Below are positions 2,437-49,782 of a DNA stretch of 64,000 nucleotides, piece by piece. Numbering within the stretch: position 1 is the stretch's first letter; each line of letters starts with the position of its first letter. The notes below the pieces were generated by a model. The model saw only the letters and a list, made by a program, of their open reading frames with translations, was not told the DNA's origin and made no database searches. The stretch is from a virus, in IMG/VR virus record IMGVR_UViG_3300042907_001080, positions 1 through 64,000 of that record. One strand, given 5' to 3'. Made by a program: the position numbers and the translations under genes.

Positions 2437-3045
2437 ATGGAAATTTTAAATTTATTCCCCACAGCAGTTTTACAAGATAATCTAGGCAAAGATTTCACTG
2501 ATGCTGAGCAGGCATCGTTTTCTAAACTTCAGTCCCAAACAAGAGGCAATGCTGAAAACACCACCAGCATTAGTTCTGAAATTTTAGAACGTCCTGAATT
2601 TGCAGCGTTAAAACAGTTTTGTTTAGACAAGACCAAGTTCTACATGAAAAACATCCTTGCTGTGCCGGATACTGTGGAACCTTACATCACACTGAGCTGG
2701 TTGAATTTTACCAACAAAGGTCAACAGCACCATAGGCATGCTCACAGCAACAGCATTTTGAGCGGAGTGTTTTATATCCATGCCAAAAAAGACATGGACA
2801 AGATTCATTTTTTCAAAGATCGATACGTGGCCATTGACCTAGGATCAACTAGTTATAATCCGTTTAATTCAGAAACTTGGTGGGTTCCTGTGGGCACAGG
2901 AGACATTGTTATATTCCCGTCGTCGTTGTGTCACGGTGTTATACCAACAAACAACGATCACACTCGCGTCAGTCTAGCATTTAATGTGTTTGTTCGAGGG
3001 GAGATTGGCAGTAGAAGCGATCTAAAATGGTTGAATATCAAATGA
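2437..3045 (+). CDS. Putative 2OG-Fe(II) oxygenase (202 aa)
   Basis: It resembles the phage putative 2OG-Fe(II) oxygenase family: an N-terminal LFPTAV motif, a central HxHSNSILSGVFYIH segment, a distal histidine in FPSSLCHGV and an arginine in TRVSLAFNVFV. These fit a double-stranded beta-helix with metal ligands and a 2-oxoglutarate-binding arginine. It is clearly related to the proteins at 55823-56509 and 58961-59560. An AAGGA-like ribosome site precedes the ATG. The substrate is unknown. It stands alone on the + strand, away from the main oxygenase cluster. Confidence 0.75.
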   Translation: MEILNLFPTAVLQDNLGKDFTDAEQASFSKLQSQTRGNAENTTSISSEILERPEFAALKQFCLDKTKFYMKNILAVPDTVEPYITLSWLNFTNKGQQHHRHAHSNSILSGVFYIHAKKDMDKIHFFKDRYVAIDLGSTSYNPFNSETWWVPVGTGDIVIFPSSLCHGVIPTNNDHTRVSLAFNVFVRGEIGSRSDLKWLNIK

Positions 3046-3289: not shown

Positions 3290-3727
3290 TTATCTGTAGA
3301 GATAGTTCACTGTATCAGCGTTTTCTCTAAAAACTTCTGCACCGTTTTTCAAGTGGAATCTACGAGCCATTTCAGTCTTGGGACTCAGAGTCACATAGGT
3401 ATTGATCTCAGGCTGCTCACGTTGGATTTCCCGCTGTGCTTCTTGAATCAATCTACGCCCTGCACCTGCAGCATATGACCATATGGTATAGAACACAGCA
3501 GTATTGGTGTTTACTGCAAGATCTGCTAGATCATCGACATCCTGCGGAATCTCACTGAGAAACTTCACACAGGTCACTGCTAGGGGTTGTTGTGTTTGAT
3601 CATCCCTCAGCACAAAAATTCGAGAATTGTTGTTGACTCGAAACTCTGCAGGCAGTTCGGGTCTTACTGGATCGTCTTTGATTAGATCAAGCAGGTTATC
3701 TCTAAGGTCTGTGATGATGTGTAGCAT
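3290..3727 (-). CDS. GNAT-fold acetyltransferase-like protein (145 aa)
   Basis: The middle (IFVLRDD...PLAVTCVKFL) and the segment with AGAGRRLIQEAQREI look like a GNAT beta-strand and acyl-CoA-binding loop, followed by TYVTLSP and a C-terminal strand with ARRFHLKNGAEVF, as in Gcn5-like and malonyl-CoA decarboxylase-like folds. Substrate unknown. The start at 3727 lies downstream of an AATAAATA-like sequence near 3750-3760. It is convergent with the 3080-3289 gene and divergent from the BI-1 gene. Confidence 0.55.
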   Translation of the reverse strand: MLHIITDLRDNLLDLIKDDPVRPELPAEFRVNNNSRIFVLRDDQTQQPLAVTCVKFLSEIPQDVDDLADLAVNTNTAVFYTIWSYAAGAGRRLIQEAQREIQREQPEINTYVTLSPKTEMARRFHLKNGAEVFRENADTVNYLYR

Positions 3728-3799
3728 GATGGGTGGTTCCTATTATATGCGTATTTATTGATATCGGTGTGATTTGGCGGTTTTTGTCAAAATCACATG

Positions 3800-3828
3800 T
3801 TGACTGTTAGTATATTATACAGTATAAT
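3800..3828 (+). promoter_or_regulatory. Sigma70 promoter (TTGACT-N17-TATAAT) for the BI-1 gene
   Basis: TTGACT at 3800-3805 and TATAAT at 3823-3828 are separated by 17 bases. Expected start is near 3835, leaving a 25-nt leader with AAAGGAG at 3847-3853 before the ATG at 3860. It should be read early by host polymerase. Confidence 0.8.
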
Positions 3829-3859
3829 TAAATATACAGCAACCACAAAGGAGTTCAAA

Positions 3860-4558
3860 ATGTTCGGAACAAATTACACAGGCGGGGACGTATTAAGTTA
3901 CCGCTCAGCAGAACAAGTCAACGCAGCCATGGGCCGTGTCTACGGACACATGAGTCTAGCAGTCATAGTATCAATGTTGGTGAGTTTTTGGGTGGGCACC
4001 ACACCTGAGCTGCTGCAATTCTTCTTCACAGGTGTGCTAAAATGGATCGTGATCTTTGCACCCCTGGCCGCCATATTTGGCGTCAGCTATGTGCTAGGTA
4101 ACAATCCCAGCAAAGGTGTAGCGCAGTTATGCCTACATGGTTTTGCGGCCTTGATGGGCTTGAGCTTTGCAATGATTTTTGCAGTGTTTACCATGGGCAG
4201 CATTGTTAGTGCATTCATGGGAGCAGCCGTCTTGTTTGCCGTGATGAGCGGATATGGATACTTTACCAAACAGAATCTAGACAGCATGGGCAAGTTCATG
4301 TTTGTGGGTTTGATAGCCATCATCATTGCCAGCATTGTTAATATCTTTATTGGTAGCACAGTCATGCAGATGGTGATCTCAGCATTGGCAATTGTCATCT
4401 TCCTTGGACTAACTGCCTACGACACACAAAAGATACGTGAAATGGTTTCAGTGGATACCAGTGATGCGGTAGAAGTATCGGGTGCATTGACCCTTTACAT
4501 GGACTTTATCAACCTGTTCCTAAATCTCTTGCAGTTGTTCGGCGATAGAAAAGACTAG
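3860..4558 (+). CDS. Bax inhibitor-1/YccA (TMBIM) family membrane protein (232 aa)
   Basis: Seven hydrophobic segments (about residues 29-48, 58-79, 88-109, 112-133, 145-166, 168-187 and 210-227) and the family signatures AYDTQKI (D188) and LYMDFINLFLNLLQLFG (D215) identify the BI-1 family. D188 and D215 correspond to the paired aspartates that gate calcium leak in the bacterial homologue YetJ. The start at 3860 is set by AAAGGAG 6 nt upstream; the longer frame would translate the promoter. E. coli YccA binds and restrains the FtsH protease, so one inference is a phage modulator of FtsH or of membrane ion leak. It has its own sigma70 promoter, so it is probably early. Confidence 0.9.
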   Translation: MFGTNYTGGDVLSYRSAEQVNAAMGRVYGHMSLAVIVSMLVSFWVGTTPELLQFFFTGVLKWIVIFAPLAAIFGVSYVLGNNPSKGVAQLCLHGFAALMGLSFAMIFAVFTMGSIVSAFMGAAVLFAVMSGYGYFTKQNLDSMGKFMFVGLIAIIIASIVNIFIGSTVMQMVISALAIVIFLGLTAYDTQKIREMVSVDTSDAVEVSGALTLYMDFINLFLNLLQLFGDRKD

Positions 4559-4812
4559 TCCAGCCTGTGCCAATCGGGCCACGTTGAACGCCATATCAGA
4601 GCAAACTGGGTCAACATCGACCCAGTTTCAAAAACCACAGTAATGATATTATGTTGTCTGGTTTCTGTAAATCTAATCCAAGGATAACAGCGCCGTATAG
4701 ATCTCAATCCTGACCTGATTCTCTTGATCCTACTCCACCGTCGATGAGGCAAGATCAAGTCCGTGGTTCTAGGATTGAAAACTATTGATACTGAGTCCAA
4801 AATTGTATCCAA
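4555..4812 (-). CDS. Basic hypothetical protein (85 aa)
   Basis: No family recognised. It is Arg-rich in the centre (HRRWSRIKRIRSGLRSIRRC) and has several Trp and Phe residues. It overlaps the end of the BI-1 gene by 4 nt (convergent) and the end of the next minus-strand gene by 31 nt, so the true start may be internal. Coding is plausible because the reading frame continues the minus-strand operon. Confidence 0.4.
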   Translation of the reverse strand: MDTILDSVSIVFNPRTTDLILPHRRWSRIKRIRSGLRSIRRCYPWIRFTETRQHNIITVVFETGSMLTQFALIWRSTWPDWHRLD

Positions 4813-6972: not shown

Positions 6973-7212
6973 TTATTTAGCCCACATTAAGTGATAAGCT
7001 AATAGTGTTTGCTGATCGTAGAATTCTGCTACGAGCTTGAAATCGTCGTTGAGTTTATCTACAACTAACTGACATTTTTCTTTGGGCTGTTTATTGATCC
7101 AATTTATTAGATCTACTCCTACAGTTTTATGTACTTTGGGCCAGTCTACTTCTATTATATCTTTACCGTTGCGTGTGTGCCAATGATAAAGTTCAAACCT
7201 ACTACTCTTCAT
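6973..7212 (-). CDS. Hypothetical protein (79 aa)
   Basis: A small alpha/beta-like protein with several Trp and Lys residues (FELYHWHTRNGKDIIEVDWPKV at the N-terminus). No family recognised. Its start overlaps the end of the helicase gene by 11 nt, so it is the next cistron of the helicase operon. Confidence 0.6.
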   Translation of the reverse strand: MKSSRFELYHWHTRNGKDIIEVDWPKVHKTVGVDLINWINKQPKEKCQLVVDKLNDDFKLVAEFYDQQTLLAYHLMWAK

Positions 7213-8659
7213 CTGTGTTCATGCTGTTTAATATTTCACGTAGTTTGGTGCTTTCTACCTGTGCTCGCACCTTGGGTTTATCTAGGCTGAATCCGTCTTT
7301 GGGTTCAGCACGTTCCCAACTAGGTTTGCTGTCACCGGGCTCTTCACGTGAAGTAAGTTCGGTCTTGCGTTTGATCTGTTCAATAATGCTGGATCCACCG
7401 CGTCCTGCGCCGTTGTGACTTTCTTGTTCATCTTCTGGAAGATCACTGATTCGCAGACTTTCAAGATTAAACTCTAGATCAATCTTCATGCCCACGCCAC
7501 TCGATGAGCGTGTCTTCATTAACTGTATTTGATAACGACCACGCTCACGCATGGCACGGCTTGTAAAGATACCAAACACGTTATCCGCAGTTTGAATCTT
7601 TGACAAACCGCCTGAAATGTGACTGTGATCAAATTCAACTTCTTCAACAGCGCCTCGATTCAACTGTGCCGCGGTGACAAATACACAGTTCTTTTCTACT
7701 GCTAGGTTACGAAGTTCTTCTGACACATACTTGTCTTTGATAAACAAGTCTGCTGGACTAATTTTCTTGCTCACTGGCATCAACAAGTCCAAATAATCAA
7801 CCAACAGCACATCGACTTTCTTGCCTACTTTGATTTCATATTCTTTCAAATATGCACGAATGTCGTTGGCAGTCTTGCCGCTAGGCATGTATTTGATCTG
7901 CAACATACCTGACTTCTTGCCAATCATTTTAACTTTCATTTCAACATCATCTAGCTCTTTGAAAATATCCTTGGTTGACGTTCCGGTGATCATTGCATCA
8001 ATACGCATACTAACTAGTGCTTCTGAAAGTTCAAGAGTTAGGTATACCACATTTAATCCTGCCAATGCCCAGTTCACGCCTAGATTAGCCAAGAATAAGG
8101 ATTTACCTGCACCTGACCCGCCTGCAAAGATGTTCAACTCTCCTCGATTCATTCCGCCAAACAGTTTACGATCCATACAGGGCCATCCTGTGCTCACTTG
8201 ACCGTTTTTGTCTTTGATGCCCATCAATCTTCCACGGGGATCAGCAAAATAGTCTGTGCCCATGTCTCGAGCAAGACCAATCTGCACAGCTTCTTTGATC
8301 AATACTTCTACTGCTCCGTAGTCATGTTTTTCTAATAAATCAGCACTTTCAATAATAGCACGTTCTAATGCCTTGTGTTGAGTGAACTTTTCGAATTCGT
8401 CCATGAACCAATCCATATGACCATCTTTGAGATCGTCGGGTCGTTTAAGTTCAGTTCTACAGGTGGCATTGACCATTTCATAGTCTGGCAATACATTATA
8501 GCCCTTGGCATATTCATTTATGAATTCTGCTGCATCTTGTAGTTTGCGATCAAACAGGCTGTGATCAAAAATACCTTGACATCGAACAAATACTTCTGCA
8601 TCTGCCAGCATGAGTTCAAGATATAATTTTTGCACTTCGTAATCGTATGTTTTTATCAT
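7202..8659 (-). CDS. 41: Replicative DNA helicase, gp41-like (485 aa)
   Basis: DnaB/T4 gp41-type hexameric helicase that unwinds the fork with the gp61 primase. An N-terminal helical domain (1-145) is followed by a RecA-type core with Walker A GGSGAGKS (180-187), Walker B LLVDYLDL (about 285-292) and a sensor/arginine segment (FGIFTSRAMRERGRYQ). Length matches T4 gp41 (475). A TATAAT-like -10 (8667-8672) lies 7 nt before the ATG. The gene sits next to the carbamoyltransferase and primase genes on the same strand. Confidence 0.9.
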   Translation of the reverse strand: MIKTYDYEVQKLYLELMLADAEVFVRCQGIFDHSLFDRKLQDAAEFINEYAKGYNVLPDYEMVNATCRTELKRPDDLKDGHMDWFMDEFEKFTQHKALERAIIESADLLEKHDYGAVEVLIKEAVQIGLARDMGTDYFADPRGRLMGIKDKNGQVSTGWPCMDRKLFGGMNRGELNIFAGGSGAGKSLFLANLGVNWALAGLNVVYLTLELSEALVSMRIDAMITGTSTKDIFKELDDVEMKVKMIGKKSGMLQIKYMPSGKTANDIRAYLKEYEIKVGKKVDVLLVDYLDLLMPVSKKISPADLFIKDKYVSEELRNLAVEKNCVFVTAAQLNRGAVEEVEFDHSHISGGLSKIQTADNVFGIFTSRAMRERGRYQIQLMKTRSSSGVGMKIDLEFNLESLRISDLPEDEQESHNGAGRGGSSIIEQIKRKTELTSREEPGDSKPSWERAEPKDGFSLDKPKVRAQVESTKLREILNSMNTDEE

Positions 8660-8666
8660 ATATTAT

Positions 8667-8695
8667 ATTATACACTCTAGTTGAACACAGGTAAA
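8667..8695 (-). promoter_or_regulatory. Probable sigma70-type promoter upstream of gp41
   Basis: On the minus strand TTTACC (8690-8695), 17 bases, then TATAAT (8667-8672), 7 nt before the ATG at 8659. The -35 is weak. The geometry predicts little or no 5' leader. Confidence 0.45.
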
Positions 8696-10146
8696 CCATG
8701 CAGTTGGGTCCAGCTTTCTGCATCAGCAGCATCATTAACCATAGGCTTGCCTTTGATGTTTAGGCTGGTATTCAACAACATAGGACAACCAGTCTTTGCA
8801 TACCAAAGCTCTAACAAGGCGCGGAACTGAGGATTATCAGTCTTATTAACCGTCTGCACACGGCTGGTATTGTCTAGATGCACTATGGCCGGAAAAGACT
8901 CAGATTTCAAACAAGGCGAAATATATTGCATGTAAGTCGTTGATTCTGTTGGCATTTTAAAGTACTGATTTGCGAATTCTTCTAATATTGCAGGAGCGAA
9001 GGGTCTGAACTGCTCACGATGCTTTATCTGGTTAATTGCGACCTTGATTTCCGAACCACGTGGATCGGCTATCAAACTGCGGTTACCCAACGCTCTGGGC
9101 CCAAACTCTGCAGGGCCTCGAGCAAGACCACACATCTTGTATTCGAGTAAATGTGTCACGATATCTTCGTTGCTGGAGATATACCCCATGTCATATCCCA
9201 AATACGGACCAGTCCATTCTATGTGTTTTTTCTTATGTGCCAATACTGCACCAATACTGCTGCCACTGTCGCCGGGTGCAGGCATGATCCAAACTCGATC
9301 AAAATATTTGTAGGCTATGGGATTAGCTGCACAGTTTAGAGCGCAACCGCCCATCAACACTAGATTTCTACTTGAACTAGATCTTACGGCCTGCTGCAAC
9401 GCTCTCTCAAATGCCATTTCATACACAGCTTGTGTGGCTGCTGCTATATCGTAAAAATCTTGCTGTGTTGTTAATTCAGGTCGCCACCATGTGCATCCAC
9501 GATGTAGATTTTGTTTGATCCTGTAAACATGCTCATAATCGTCATTGGGTAAACTAACAAAATCATCTAGTAGATCTCTGAGAAATCTTTTTGGATTTCC
9601 CAATGCTGCCATGCCCATTAAGATATATTCTTCTTCGTTGGGTTTTAGTCCGCAGCGTTGTGTCATTGCGGAATAAAACAATCCTAGACTATTTGGATAT
9701 TCTAGACTATACCGTTTATGTAAGTTATTACCAACAGCATCCCATTGTGTTAGGCATTCAAATTCACCAATGGCATCGATTACTAGCACACAGGCATTGT
9801 CAAATTCGCTGGTATAATATCCTGCGGCGGCATGTGTTTGATGATGTCCAAAAGTTTTGATTGGTGCTCGAATGTTAAACTTTCTAAGATAATCTTTTAC
9901 ATTATTATTCTGCCATCCTTGCCCGGCAGTGAGCTGTCTTAGGGTTTTTAACCAAGGACGTTCATACCAACACACAAGATCAGGCTCGCCAAACGTTCGT
10001 GCATGATCTACTAGTTTTTGATCTAGATCGGCATCGTTTTTTATTCCGCTGAATCTTTCGCTTTCACTAGCGAAAATCAATTTGTCGTCTTCAAACACTG
10101 CTAATGCAGCGTTGTGACTAGCGGCAGAAATTCCCCAGGTAATCAT
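8677..10146 (-). CDS. Carbamoyltransferase, NodU/CmcH family (489 aa)
   Basis: Transfers carbamoyl from carbamoyl phosphate, via a carbamoyl-AMP intermediate, to a hydroxyl group. The N-terminal ASKHA-like domain starts ITWGISAASHNAAL, with HHQTHAAAGYYTS near 101-113; the C-terminal domain has the family signature GPRALGNRSLIADPR and ends with the NTSLN...P segment. Length is somewhat short of the usual 560-600. It overlaps the 38-codon upstream gene by 4 nt. Phage carbamoyltransferases have been linked to carbamoylation of hydroxymethylated DNA bases; a glycan substrate is the alternative, since many sugar enzymes are nearby. Confidence 0.88.
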   Translation of the reverse strand: MITWGISAASHNAALAVFEDDKLIFASESERFSGIKNDADLDQKLVDHARTFGEPDLVCWYERPWLKTLRQLTAGQGWQNNNVKDYLRKFNIRAPIKTFGHHQTHAAAGYYTSEFDNACVLVIDAIGEFECLTQWDAVGNNLHKRYSLEYPNSLGLFYSAMTQRCGLKPNEEEYILMGMAALGNPKRFLRDLLDDFVSLPNDDYEHVYRIKQNLHRGCTWWRPELTTQQDFYDIAAATQAVYEMAFERALQQAVRSSSSRNLVLMGGCALNCAANPIAYKYFDRVWIMPAPGDSGSSIGAVLAHKKKHIEWTGPYLGYDMGYISSNEDIVTHLLEYKMCGLARGPAEFGPRALGNRSLIADPRGSEIKVAINQIKHREQFRPFAPAILEEFANQYFKMPTESTTYMQYISPCLKSESFPAIVHLDNTSRVQTVNKTDNPQFRALLELWYAKTGCPMLLNTSLNIKGKPMVNDAADAESWTQLHGLPVFN

Positions 10147-46227: not shown

Positions 46228-49200
46228 TTAAATTTCTCCTGTGTTCTTGATACGCAATGGAATGTAAATGAACTCAATGGCTTTCACTGGCTCTATGGCG
46301 ATATCAACATAAAGTTCGTTGCGATCGATACGAGACGGAGTATTATTGCTTTCATCACACACAACCGCAAAGTCGTAGATTGCTCTCAAGCCTACCAATT
46401 CCAACAATAGGCTTTCTGCCGCTTGTTTGATTTCATCTCTGGTAATCTTGTCGTTGGGTTCGAACAAATATGGACGAGCCAACTTGTTCAACTGGCTACG
46501 TAGATATACTACCAATCGTGCTACGTTGATACGATCTAGTGCTGATGCATTTCTTGCACGAGTCTTTTGACCGTAAGCCACAAGTCCTACTCCGTTGAAG
46601 AATGGAATTGGATTGACCTTTAATTCATATAGTGTATCACGTTGGCCTTCGTTGAGTGCTACAGTTTGGAACTCACCTGTGGCAGCATCAATATAACCCA
46701 CTGCTGTGGCATTTGTAATACCGCCACGACGTGTTCCTGCTGGTGCAAACCATGGGAAGCTGACATTATCGCTGAGTGCGATAGTCTTCAGCATCATGTG
46801 ACTTGCTGGAACCACTGCATTAGAACCACTTAGGTCAGTGGTAAATCCATTTGGATAGTATGTAGCCAAGTATTCATCATAGGTTACAATGCCGTCATCG
46901 CCGTTGTCTGTGACTAATTCTGCATTAGTTCCCCAGTTGTTCAATGATGTAGCATCTGCAGGCAATCTCAATGGAGTATCACCTATGACAAATGCTGTGA
47001 TACCTCTGTCAATGTTAAGATTAACTAGATTGCTCATTGTTTCTGGATATCCTGGGCAAGCTATGATGTTGAAGTTTCTGCGTTCTTCATCACGGATCTC
47101 TTGACTTGTGTCAATCACCGACTTCAAGGCCTGTGTAACTACCTTGCGTTGTGCTTTGCGACCAAAACTGCCTGATCCGTCTTCGTTGTTGCCTGACGCT
47201 GTAACCCAACGATCTGGATAGTAGCTTTCCATAGTTTGGCCTGAACCGCTAACAAATGGGTCACCGTTATTAGTACCGCCAGATTGGCTTGTGCGTGGAT
47301 TATCTGTAGCAGTATCAATATAGTTGTTGCGATATTGCTTAACGTTGCCGCCGCTACGTCTTAGATTCCACAGCAACATACCTTTTGGATATAGTGCTGG
47401 ATCTGGAGCATCTGGGTCTAGGAAGTTGTTGGTAATCAAGTCGGCAATGTCATCACTAGGTGCTGTAGTAGCTGTACCACCACTTGTACCTTGACGAGCA
47501 TCTGCAAACAGCACACCTTCTTCTGTGGTTTGATCTGTCTTATCAACCAATTCCCAACGCAGTGTAACATCACCGATGTCGGTCAAATTGCTGTTGTATC
47601 TATAAATTGTTGGGAAGTTTTCTAGATCAGCTGTGCTGATCCACAAATCACCTGTGACAGTAACGCCTGACACATATGGATTGCTGGCAGCTACTATTGG
47701 TAAGTAACCGGTTCTCTTTGTCAACGCTGTGTCGTCAGTTTGATTAAAATATGGTGCTGTGCTGTGTCTATATCCCACCCATGTGTTGCCATTATGAACC
47801 ATAATGTCAACATCAGCAAAGTTAGGATTGTACCATAGTTGTTGATCTGCTGCTTCATTCAATGGAGCATCTGGACTGGCTGAGAATCTTGGATCTTGTG
47901 CGGCTAACGGCTGATAACCTGAAGCTAGATAGTCTTGTGCAGCACCTGCAGCAAGATCTTCTGCGCCTGCAGCACCACTACCCAATGAAATATTGTAGAA
48001 GTTTTCTGTGCCAGCTCTGGTCTTGATGTTGTATGGAGTGAATAGAGTCGACAATGGATTACCTGTGCTGTCTGTGAGTCTAAAATCGCCACCGTCATTG
48101 TGAGTAATTACCAATCTGCTCTGTGTTAGGGTAATCTGCACCACAGAGGCTTCGATGTTTGTGAAGCCGGCTGCGTTGATAGCAGCAGCAAACTTGTCTG
48201 CATCGCTGTTGTCGCCTGTAGGCGCATTTCCCGCGGCTGTTGACAAAGTAATGGTTTTGGCAGCATCTAGAGCCAACTGTCCTACTATGCTTTCAGCCAA
48301 GGTAAATGTTCTAGTAGAAGCAGCGGTAAAGGTTCCACTTTTGATAATGTTGGATGTAATGCTGGTGCCCTGACCTATACCTATATGTCTATACCACATA
48401 CGGAATTCAGCTGTGTCTGGAGTTGCGTCAAATCCACTGTGTTCTTGTGCATTGCTCTGTACAAACACTGTATCTGCTGAGATGTTAGCACCACCTCCAC
48501 TGCGATCTAGATAGTAAAGTGCAGCATTGGTAGATGCATATATAGGAGCTTCTGATGCTACCCACGATAATGTAGCTGAACTCCACTGCTTGGCTCTCCA
48601 TCTAGCGCCGTTGTTTGGCTCTGTGGTTTTAATCCATACAGACCCTGTAGCATATCCCTGCAATGAGGTTGGGTTATCACTGCGCTTGTAAGTCGGCACA
48701 TCTGTGTGCGGTGATTGTTGCAGTTTAGGGCTGAGGTATAATCCGGTGTCAATGCCAATGGTGCTCCAGCTTGCTGTGCCATTTTCTAACTTTATCTGTC
48801 CATCAGCAGACAATGCACTGTCTCCAACTTCAACATTAGTGTTTTCTCCTAATGATCTACCATCGGAATAGATGTATAACTTATTACCCAACATCTTTGC
48901 TGTTACACCCACGATACCGGGTGAATTGATGTTGTTTGCGATTTGTGTTAAAGTTCCTGCAGTAATTTGTTGGGCGTTAACGAATAAAGTGCCCGACAGT
49001 GTTCCCGAGTATGTGTTACTTACTGCTACTGGCCAGCTGGCTTTCCACGCATTGGAACCTATCAATACCCATTCGCCTGCATCAACTGGTGTGCCGCCGG
49101 CACTTACCCCGCCATTGCCTGGAGACTTGTAATATATTCTTGCCAAGTCATTTGCAGTTGTATATGCAGCAGCTTCACCTACAGTTTGAAATACTACTGC

Positions 49201-49782
49201 ATAATCTCCGATCTGTCCTACAGATGTTTTAGGAGCATTGTTTTCAATTTTAGAAGGACTGTCTGCATCTGTTAGCACTAACGGTACTTTGTTAGTAAAT
49301 TTCTGTCCGCCGGCTGTTGATGCTGCGGCACTGTTCCACTCTTGGATACCCCAAGTTGTGGCCTGTGTGTCCATCCACCATTTGCCGTTTACAGGGTTCG
49401 CTCCCGGGGCATCTACTTCTGCTGCGAGTTGGTCTAGATCTACATCAGCTCGAACAATAAATGCCGCGTTGCTTACACCTAGCAAACTATAGGCTGCTAA
49501 TAGTCCATATTCGTTGCGCTCTGAACCATGGATAGGAGTTGAACTCGCTGTCTGTTCAAAGAACGGAATCCCAAAAAGATCTGTGAGATCTCTCTGACTC
49601 GTAATTTTAAATGCCTTGCCAGCATTTGCTTTGGTTGTTGCTGAAGCTGTGTTTGTTCCAGCTCCGTTTGTTTTATCTTGGGCTGTAGCTACGACGATAA
49701 GAGGAACCGTACCAGGTTCTGCTGGTGTATAAAAACTCTCGTCGATTACCGTAACTTGTACGCCTGGTGATGTTAGTGCCAT
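46228..49782 (-). CDS. 18: Tail sheath protein, gp18-like, enlarged (1184 aa)
   Basis: The contractile sheath. N-terminal SPGVQVTVIDES and C-terminal blocks (NFNIIACPGYPETM, ITAFVIGDTPLRL, FPWFAPAGTRRGGI, NARNASALDRINVARLVVYLR, FVEPNDKITRDEI-type) mark gp18. It is about 1.8 times the T4 length (659), with a large Ser/Thr/Asn-rich insertion around residues 200-820, probably displayed on the sheath surface. AGGAGA lies 10 nt from the ATG, with a CTAAATAT box upstream. Confidence 0.9.
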   Translation of the reverse strand: MALTSPGVQVTVIDESFYTPAEPGTVPLIVVATAQDKTNGAGTNTASATTKANAGKAFKITSQRDLTDLFGIPFFEQTASSTPIHGSERNEYGLLAAYSLLGVSNAAFIVRADVDLDQLAAEVDAPGANPVNGKWWMDTQATTWGIQEWNSAAASTAGGQKFTNKVPLVLTDADSPSKIENNAPKTSVGQIGDYAVVFQTVGEAAAYTTANDLARIYYKSPGNGGVSAGGTPVDAGEWVLIGSNAWKASWPVAVSNTYSGTLSGTLFVNAQQITAGTLTQIANNINSPGIVGVTAKMLGNKLYIYSDGRSLGENTNVEVGDSALSADGQIKLENGTASWSTIGIDTGLYLSPKLQQSPHTDVPTYKRSDNPTSLQGYATGSVWIKTTEPNNGARWRAKQWSSATLSWVASEAPIYASTNAALYYLDRSGGGANISADTVFVQSNAQEHSGFDATPDTAEFRMWYRHIGIGQGTSITSNIIKSGTFTAASTRTFTLAESIVGQLALDAAKTITLSTAAGNAPTGDNSDADKFAAAINAAGFTNIEASVVQITLTQSRLVITHNDGGDFRLTDSTGNPLSTLFTPYNIKTRAGTENFYNISLGSGAAGAEDLAAGAAQDYLASGYQPLAAQDPRFSASPDAPLNEAADQQLWYNPNFADVDIMVHNGNTWVGYRHSTAPYFNQTDDTALTKRTGYLPIVAASNPYVSGVTVTGDLWISTADLENFPTIYRYNSNLTDIGDVTLRWELVDKTDQTTEEGVLFADARQGTSGGTATTAPSDDIADLITNNFLDPDAPDPALYPKGMLLWNLRRSGGNVKQYRNNYIDTATDNPRTSQSGGTNNGDPFVSGSGQTMESYYPDRWVTASGNNEDGSGSFGRKAQRKVVTQALKSVIDTSQEIRDEERRNFNIIACPGYPETMSNLVNLNIDRGITAFVIGDTPLRLPADATSLNNWGTNAELVTDNGDDGIVTYDEYLATYYPNGFTTDLSGSNAVVPASHMMLKTIALSDNVSFPWFAPAGTRRGGITNATAVGYIDAATGEFQTVALNEGQRDTLYELKVNPIPFFNGVGLVAYGQKTRARNASALDRINVARLVVYLRSQLNKLARPYLFEPNDKITRDEIKQAAESLLLELVGLRAIYDFAVVCDESNNTPSRIDRNELYVDIAIEPVKAIEFIYIPLRIKNTGEI

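Follow-up and report, generated by a model that had tools for sequence, protein, structure and literature searches.

A Bax inhibitor-1 protein of large T4-like phages forms an apparently undescribed and strongly conserved phage-only branch of its family

Introduction

A study of 2021 counted only two prokaryotic Bax inhibitor-1 (BI-1) homologues reported until then (PMC7876416). A gene of this family was observed in the window, bases 1-64000 of a virus record of 281,658 bases (281.7 kb). A preliminary description of the DNA, made from the sequence, had proposed a modulator of the FtsH protease or a lysis-timing protein, and had compared the product with YccA of E. coli.

Gene, protein family and structure model

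The BI-1 gene was located at 3860..4558 on the plus strand and encodes a YbhL/YetJ-type TMBIM protein of 232 aa. The Bax1-I profile (PF01027) covered residues 23-227 with 180 bits (E=4.8e-53, gathering cut-off 34.1), and the alignment spanned profile positions 3-207 of 207, which is a match to the full domain and bears out the family named in the preliminary description. The longest open reading frame opened at 3797, a start codon which was rejected as its position coincides with the promoter. The start at 3860 was chosen because a Shine-Dalgarno sequence, AAAGGAG (3847..3853, plus strand, read directly), precedes it and the conserved start of the relatives aligns there. AAGGAG or a similar sequence stood before the start codon in nearly all of the 80 best-listed phage relatives.

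The paired aspartates D188 and D215 (232-aa numbering) were both present, as had been read from the sequence earlier, and aligned with the D171/D195 dyad in solved chains of YetJ, the chain in the alignment being numbered two residues short. The signature noted before as LYMDF-NLF was found as LYMDFINLF. D188 was invariant across 133 phage BI-1 sequences, and the other position was D in 128 of them and N in 5, so the complete dyad is not absolutely required.

An AlphaFold2 model, which was built with 55 window and locus sequences, gave seven long helices (pLDDT 79.8, pTM 0.77), and together with the fold match to YetJ it agrees with the seven helices predicted before. YetJ entries were the sole significant PDB matches of the model (TM 0.56-0.73, about 24% identity). 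The rmsd to YetJ was high, about 7-9 A, in agreement with a helix of low confidence at residues 141-180. In the model some 16 residues at the N-terminus also formed a flexible tail, partly conserved among phage BI-1 sequences. In addition, the fold search matched giant-virus and cytomegalovirus US12-family proteins, and no phage protein was among its significant matches.

Comparison with bacterial BI-1 proteins

Phage BI-1 and E. coli YccA, an FtsH modulator, belong to the same PF01027 superfamily, and YccA is a seven-helix inner-membrane protein, as is predicted for the phage protein. However, phage BI-1 scored only 35.2 bits with the YccA equivalog model (NF007765), for which the cut-off is 353 and E. 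coli YccA itself scored 455.8. YccA has neither aspartate of the dyad, and it formed a separate branch with a support of 100, distant from all YbhL-type and phage rows of the tree. The earlier equation with YccA is thus not supported, and by sequence the phage protein is YbhL/YetJ-type, not YccA. A search of IMG/VR with a YccA-type query yielded no more than five true matches, and these were rejected as phage relatives; two of the five had 98% identity to E. coli yccA, lay close to contig ends and are most likely the host flanks of prophages.

The YbhL-type proteins of E. coli and alphaproteobacteria fall with phage BI-1 in the tree and have both aspartates, seven helices and the motifs AYDTQK and LY(M/L)DFINLF in common with it. 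They differ in sequence (34-49% identity), in the residues fixed in phages, in the long phage stem described below, and in promoter and gene context. YetJ of Bacillus subtilis, for which structures have been solved, has the fold and the D171/D195 equivalents, and its pH-sensitive Ca2+ leak is, by analogy, predicted for the phage protein.

Phage-only clade and its origin

At least 598 IMG/VR stretches encode BI-1 relatives, and the best 80 of these were 83-100% identical to phage BI-1. A second scan, started from a member of 72% identity, added further members of the phage clade. The nearest match among 84,980 bacterial and archaeal genomes had an identity of 47%, and no full-length bacterial sequence was above 47-49%. 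The family itself is common in bacteria, with a match in 123 of 150 Pseudomonadota genomes.

A tree was calculated by maximum likelihood from 92 rows, 42 of them phage sequences, with a bacterial sample that was dominated by Pseudomonadota and biased by the query's own peptides. All 42 phage rows formed one clade with a support of 100, on a stem of 1.65 substitutions/site. Thus the PF01027 search and tree that had been suggested as a check gave a large monophyletic phage clade, and not a position within a single host clade devoid of phage relatives. The stem attached beside Rhodobacterales within alphaproteobacterial YbhL-type sequences with a weak support of 81, and the AU p of 0.85 for this grouping is not proof of it. 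In the present sampling, the sequences point to an apparently single origin of the phage clade. Since 27 positions hold a residue that never varies in the phage clade but is rarely seen in bacteria (39 were common to both), the function of BI-1 may have shifted in phages.

The BI-1 contigs are metagenomic and many of them are fragments. BI-1 was found on 3 of 18 contigs reached through relatives of the tail sheath, most of these 18 being fragments which perhaps stop short of the BI-1 region. No PHROG family matched phage BI-1, and the annotated phage collection gave only eight weak matches (28-45%) in unannotated records, the best of them labelled UNVERIFIED. A description of phage BI-1 was not found in the open-licence PMC papers searched, which agrees with the earlier remark that the family has no assigned role in a phage; a subscription paper or preprint may have one. 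The phage-only branch to which BI-1 belongs is widespread and strongly conserved, and apparently undescribed.

Phage identity and gene neighbourhood

The record encodes a T4-type Gp23 major capsid protein (329 bits), together with T4-type tail sheath and baseplate proteins, a DnaB-like helicase and a primase, which supports the T4-like phage of the preliminary description. Of 20 further BI-1 contigs that were checked, 8 also encoded Gp23, and every one of the five with a length of 278-358 kb was among these 8. The sheath was nearest (about 40-44%) to those of jumbo phages of Sinorhizobium, Agrobacterium and Pseudomonas. It is unusually long (1184 aa, window 46228-49782), and the best matches from cultured jumbo phages span just 39-88% of it.

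BI-1 was found in several gene contexts. In the first one, shared by the window and seven relatives (L056, L062, L228, L231, L250, L254 and L263), a promoter of its own precedes BI-1, and the gene is neighboured by a convergent block which reaches a DnaB-like replicative helicase (phrog_19, 7202..8659 in the window, minus strand) at its end. The divergent upstream neighbour in the window, a weak malonyl-CoA decarboxylase C-terminal-like gene (3290..3727, minus strand, PF05292 40 bits), recurs in the same context among relatives. In the second context the genes for ClpP, DNA ligase and a MazG/PRA-PH-like protein stand ahead of BI-1, and the four seem to form an operon. Both contexts were seen in near as well as deep members of the clade. 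In four other contigs (L037, L038, L046, L047) BI-1 lies between AhpC and AhpD, and in some of these a gene reading as class II aldolase joins AhpC. An example is the apparent operon AhpC, class II aldolase-like gene, BI-1 and AhpD at L046:8829-11196; the AhpC/AhpD pair is peroxide-detoxifying, and a 347-kb T4-like phage is among these contigs. In three more (L227, L230, L232) BI-1 is flanked by IscU-like and IscA-like Fe-S assembly genes, for example at L230:9616-9999 and neighbours. AhpC/AhpD or IscU/IscA neighbours fit a role in stress or redox homeostasis, but the context does not fix one pathway because the neighbours differ between phage groups.

Other genes were also observed. A carbamoyltransferase (PF02543/PF16861) was encoded at 8677-10146 of the window and a 2OG-Fe(II) oxygenase at 2437-3045. 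An IscU-like protein (L271:12940-13326) was likewise found in the window's phage and is among its most conserved proteins.

Conservation and selection

Proteins shared between phages were taken as reciprocal best hits with the genome of the window. With the 347-kb phage 135 proteins were shared at a median identity of 45%, and BI-1 ranked first of them with 86%, above the major capsid protein (76%). It ranked 5 of 168 against a 358-kb phage and 18 of 108 against a 278-kb phage, and its identity among the four large phages was 73-91%. The fourfold-degenerate sites of the gene were only 32-51% identical, where about 28% is expected by chance. Such sites are near saturation, and purifying selection therefore explains why the protein is so alike between these phages; a recent transfer from phage to phage was rejected as the cause. 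Genome pairs ranked differently by BI-1 and by capsid identity, which makes old exchanges between phages likely. GTP cyclohydrolase, IscU and PTPS were about as conserved as BI-1. In fact BI-1 is one among a small set of highly conserved host-type genes, and since several metabolic phage genes reach about the same level, conservation alone is unspecific.

Promoters and transcript signals

A sigma70-type promoter, TTGACT-17-TATAAT, was found at 3800..3828 on the plus strand, matching 11 of 12 consensus bases and ending 31 nt before the start codon. Promoter-like sites near the gene were not in excess (9 against 7.3 expected in a 3.5-kb scan). The promoter is convincing because strong sites recur: among 67 distinct regions upstream of the gene in phage relatives, 13 had a site of 11/12 or 12/12, while 200 simulations with shuffled sequence gave a mean of 0.11 and never more than 2. 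Most of the strong promoters in relatives had a 17-bp spacer and stood 21-49 nt ahead of the start codon. The own sigma70 promoter reported for this gene is real as a sequence, from which early transcription of BI-1 by host RNA polymerase can be inferred.

Downstream of BI-1 a hairpin with a perfect 10-bp stem and a 6-nt loop, without a U-tract, was found by sequence and folding at 4603..4628, which is a possible end of the transcript. In three relatives (L006, L056, L062) a hairpin followed by ATTTTTT lies just 3' of the BI-1 gene.

Over the whole record 37 strong sigma70-like sites were counted where 11 would be expected, and roughly half of the 37 lay between genes. A 12/12 site was present at 340-368 of the window. 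A cluster of 11-12/12 promoters on the minus strand at 264-280 kb of the record, mostly with 17-bp spacers, probably marks an early region. A 12/12 site also stands about 210 bp upstream of the gene for a calcineurin-like phosphoesterase (record 264130-264735, L274:130-735), which is 84% identical in the 347-kb phage, where it was the fourth most conserved. The T4-type late promoter TATAAATA was depleted in the whole record, with 12 copies against 32 expected for independent bases, so late transcription may rely on another signal.

Possible function

The explanation that fits best, to which we would give nearly an even chance, is that BI-1 is an early YbhL/YetJ-type pH-sensing cation leak which keeps the membrane of the infected cell healthy. 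The gene would have been captured long ago, apparently once and probably from an alphaproteobacterium, and would now be under strong constraint in large T4-like phages. Its consensus sigma70 promoter would let host RNA polymerase produce BI-1 early, and the modelled seven-helix protein would insert in the host inner membrane. There the aspartate dyad could work as in YetJ, as the pH-sensitive gate of a slow cation or Ca2+-H+ leak, which would buffer imbalance of ions and of the proton gradient. In this way the infected cell might keep both its membrane and the proteins in it working through infection, and restraint of FtsH, as seen with YccA and mitochondrial TMBIM5, may form part of the means. 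A YetJ-like pH-gated leak is the simplest molecular activity because the dyad is present, and it is weakened because the leak was measured in YetJ, a distant homologue of about 24% identity. Membrane protection has a parallel in the alphaproteobacterial BI-1 homologue of Brucella, which preserves the properties of the membrane, viability, and the resistance to acid and H2O2 (PMC7876416).

The FtsH modulator of the preliminary description is the next candidate and is rather unlikely. BI-1 would here bind FtsH/HflKC and restrain the degradation of membrane or phage proteins, with an effect like that of lambda CIII. CIII is a short polypeptide unrelated to BI-1, and the likeness would lie in the proposed effect only. 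CIII is described as an inhibitor of FtsH (PMC1838920). YccA, a distant relative, and human TMBIM5 each restrain FtsH-type proteases and are also their substrates; mitochondrial TMBIM5 restrains the FtsH homologue AFG3L2 and is a Ca2+/H+ exchanger (PMC9379554). The leak model and the FtsH model could both be true, because TMBIM5 combines the two activities. The flexible, partly conserved N-terminal tail would suit FtsH modulation too, as such a tail is important in YccA (PMC7876416). A BI-1 contig of 138 kb (G179) encodes an SPFH/Band_7 protein (G179:C1:86890-87471, 66 bits) of the superfamily of HflK/C, which are FtsH partners. However, Band_7 was absent from 8 of the 9 large BI-1 contigs, and an HflKC-like partner for BI-1 was rejected on this count. 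There was no recognised FtsH partner gene beside BI-1, and the low YccA score, the differences at both dyad positions of YccA and its separate branch also speak against such a role. To our knowledge no FtsH role has been shown for YbhL-type proteins, which was counted against it as well. The YccA basis of the proposal failed its tests, and FtsH modulation could hold only as a property of the family as a whole, in view of TMBIM5 (PMC9379554). A link through photosynthesis and D1-FtsH was rejected, with no psbA in the nine large contigs.

A role in counter-defence is improbable. The early membrane protein would block abortive infection that acts by membrane depolarisation or leakage, in keeping with the early-type promoters upstream of BI-1 and, by analogy, with the BI-1 proteins that block death programmes in eukaryotes. 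Viruses of eukaryotes hold proteins of the same fold, namely the poxvirus GAAPs, which are TMBIM proteins, the cytomegalovirus US12 family and giant-virus BI-1, although these have mostly 11-22% identity to phage BI-1 in the fold matches, independent hosts and eukaryotic membranes to act in. Rapid diversification is usual for host-specific counter-defence genes, but BI-1 is among the most conserved proteins, and it has no known defence target.

Lysis timing, or a holin-like leak, is very unlikely, even if BI-1 is a small multi-helix membrane protein of a family that can conduct cations. Its seven helices are conserved and carry a regulated dyad, the protein as a whole is strongly conserved, its sigma70 promoters are recurrent and of early type, and no lysis gene was recognised beside it, its neighbours being replication, ClpP/ligase, AhpC/AhpD or IscU/IscA genes, which disfavours the lysis role suggested earlier. 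Host contamination or the recent pick-up of a non-functional host gene, which the frequency of the family in Pseudomonadota (123/150 genomes) might suggest, is hardly credible given Gp23 on BI-1 contigs, including all five of 278-358 kb, the monophyletic phage clade, a bacterial identity of at most 47-49% and purifying selection.

Meaning for phages and for the family

Bacterial BI-1 proteins are common yet barely understood, and a phage BI-1 with a constraint as strong as that of the capsid protein offers a direct genetic handle on their role. It is possible, if somewhat doubtful, that BI-1 is near-core in a large group of big T4-like phages as a dedicated early factor in the membrane which keeps the host alive and energised. 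If this is true, the TMBIM proteins in poxviruses, cytomegaloviruses and giant viruses would have in phage BI-1 their counterpart among prokaryotic viruses, and TMBIM capture would be a convergent strategy in viruses of bacteria and eukaryotes. The phage clade, with the strong promoters for host RNA polymerase that often stand upstream of its genes, suggests that phages resemble some animal viruses in managing the infected cell through a stress-protection protein of the BI-1 family.
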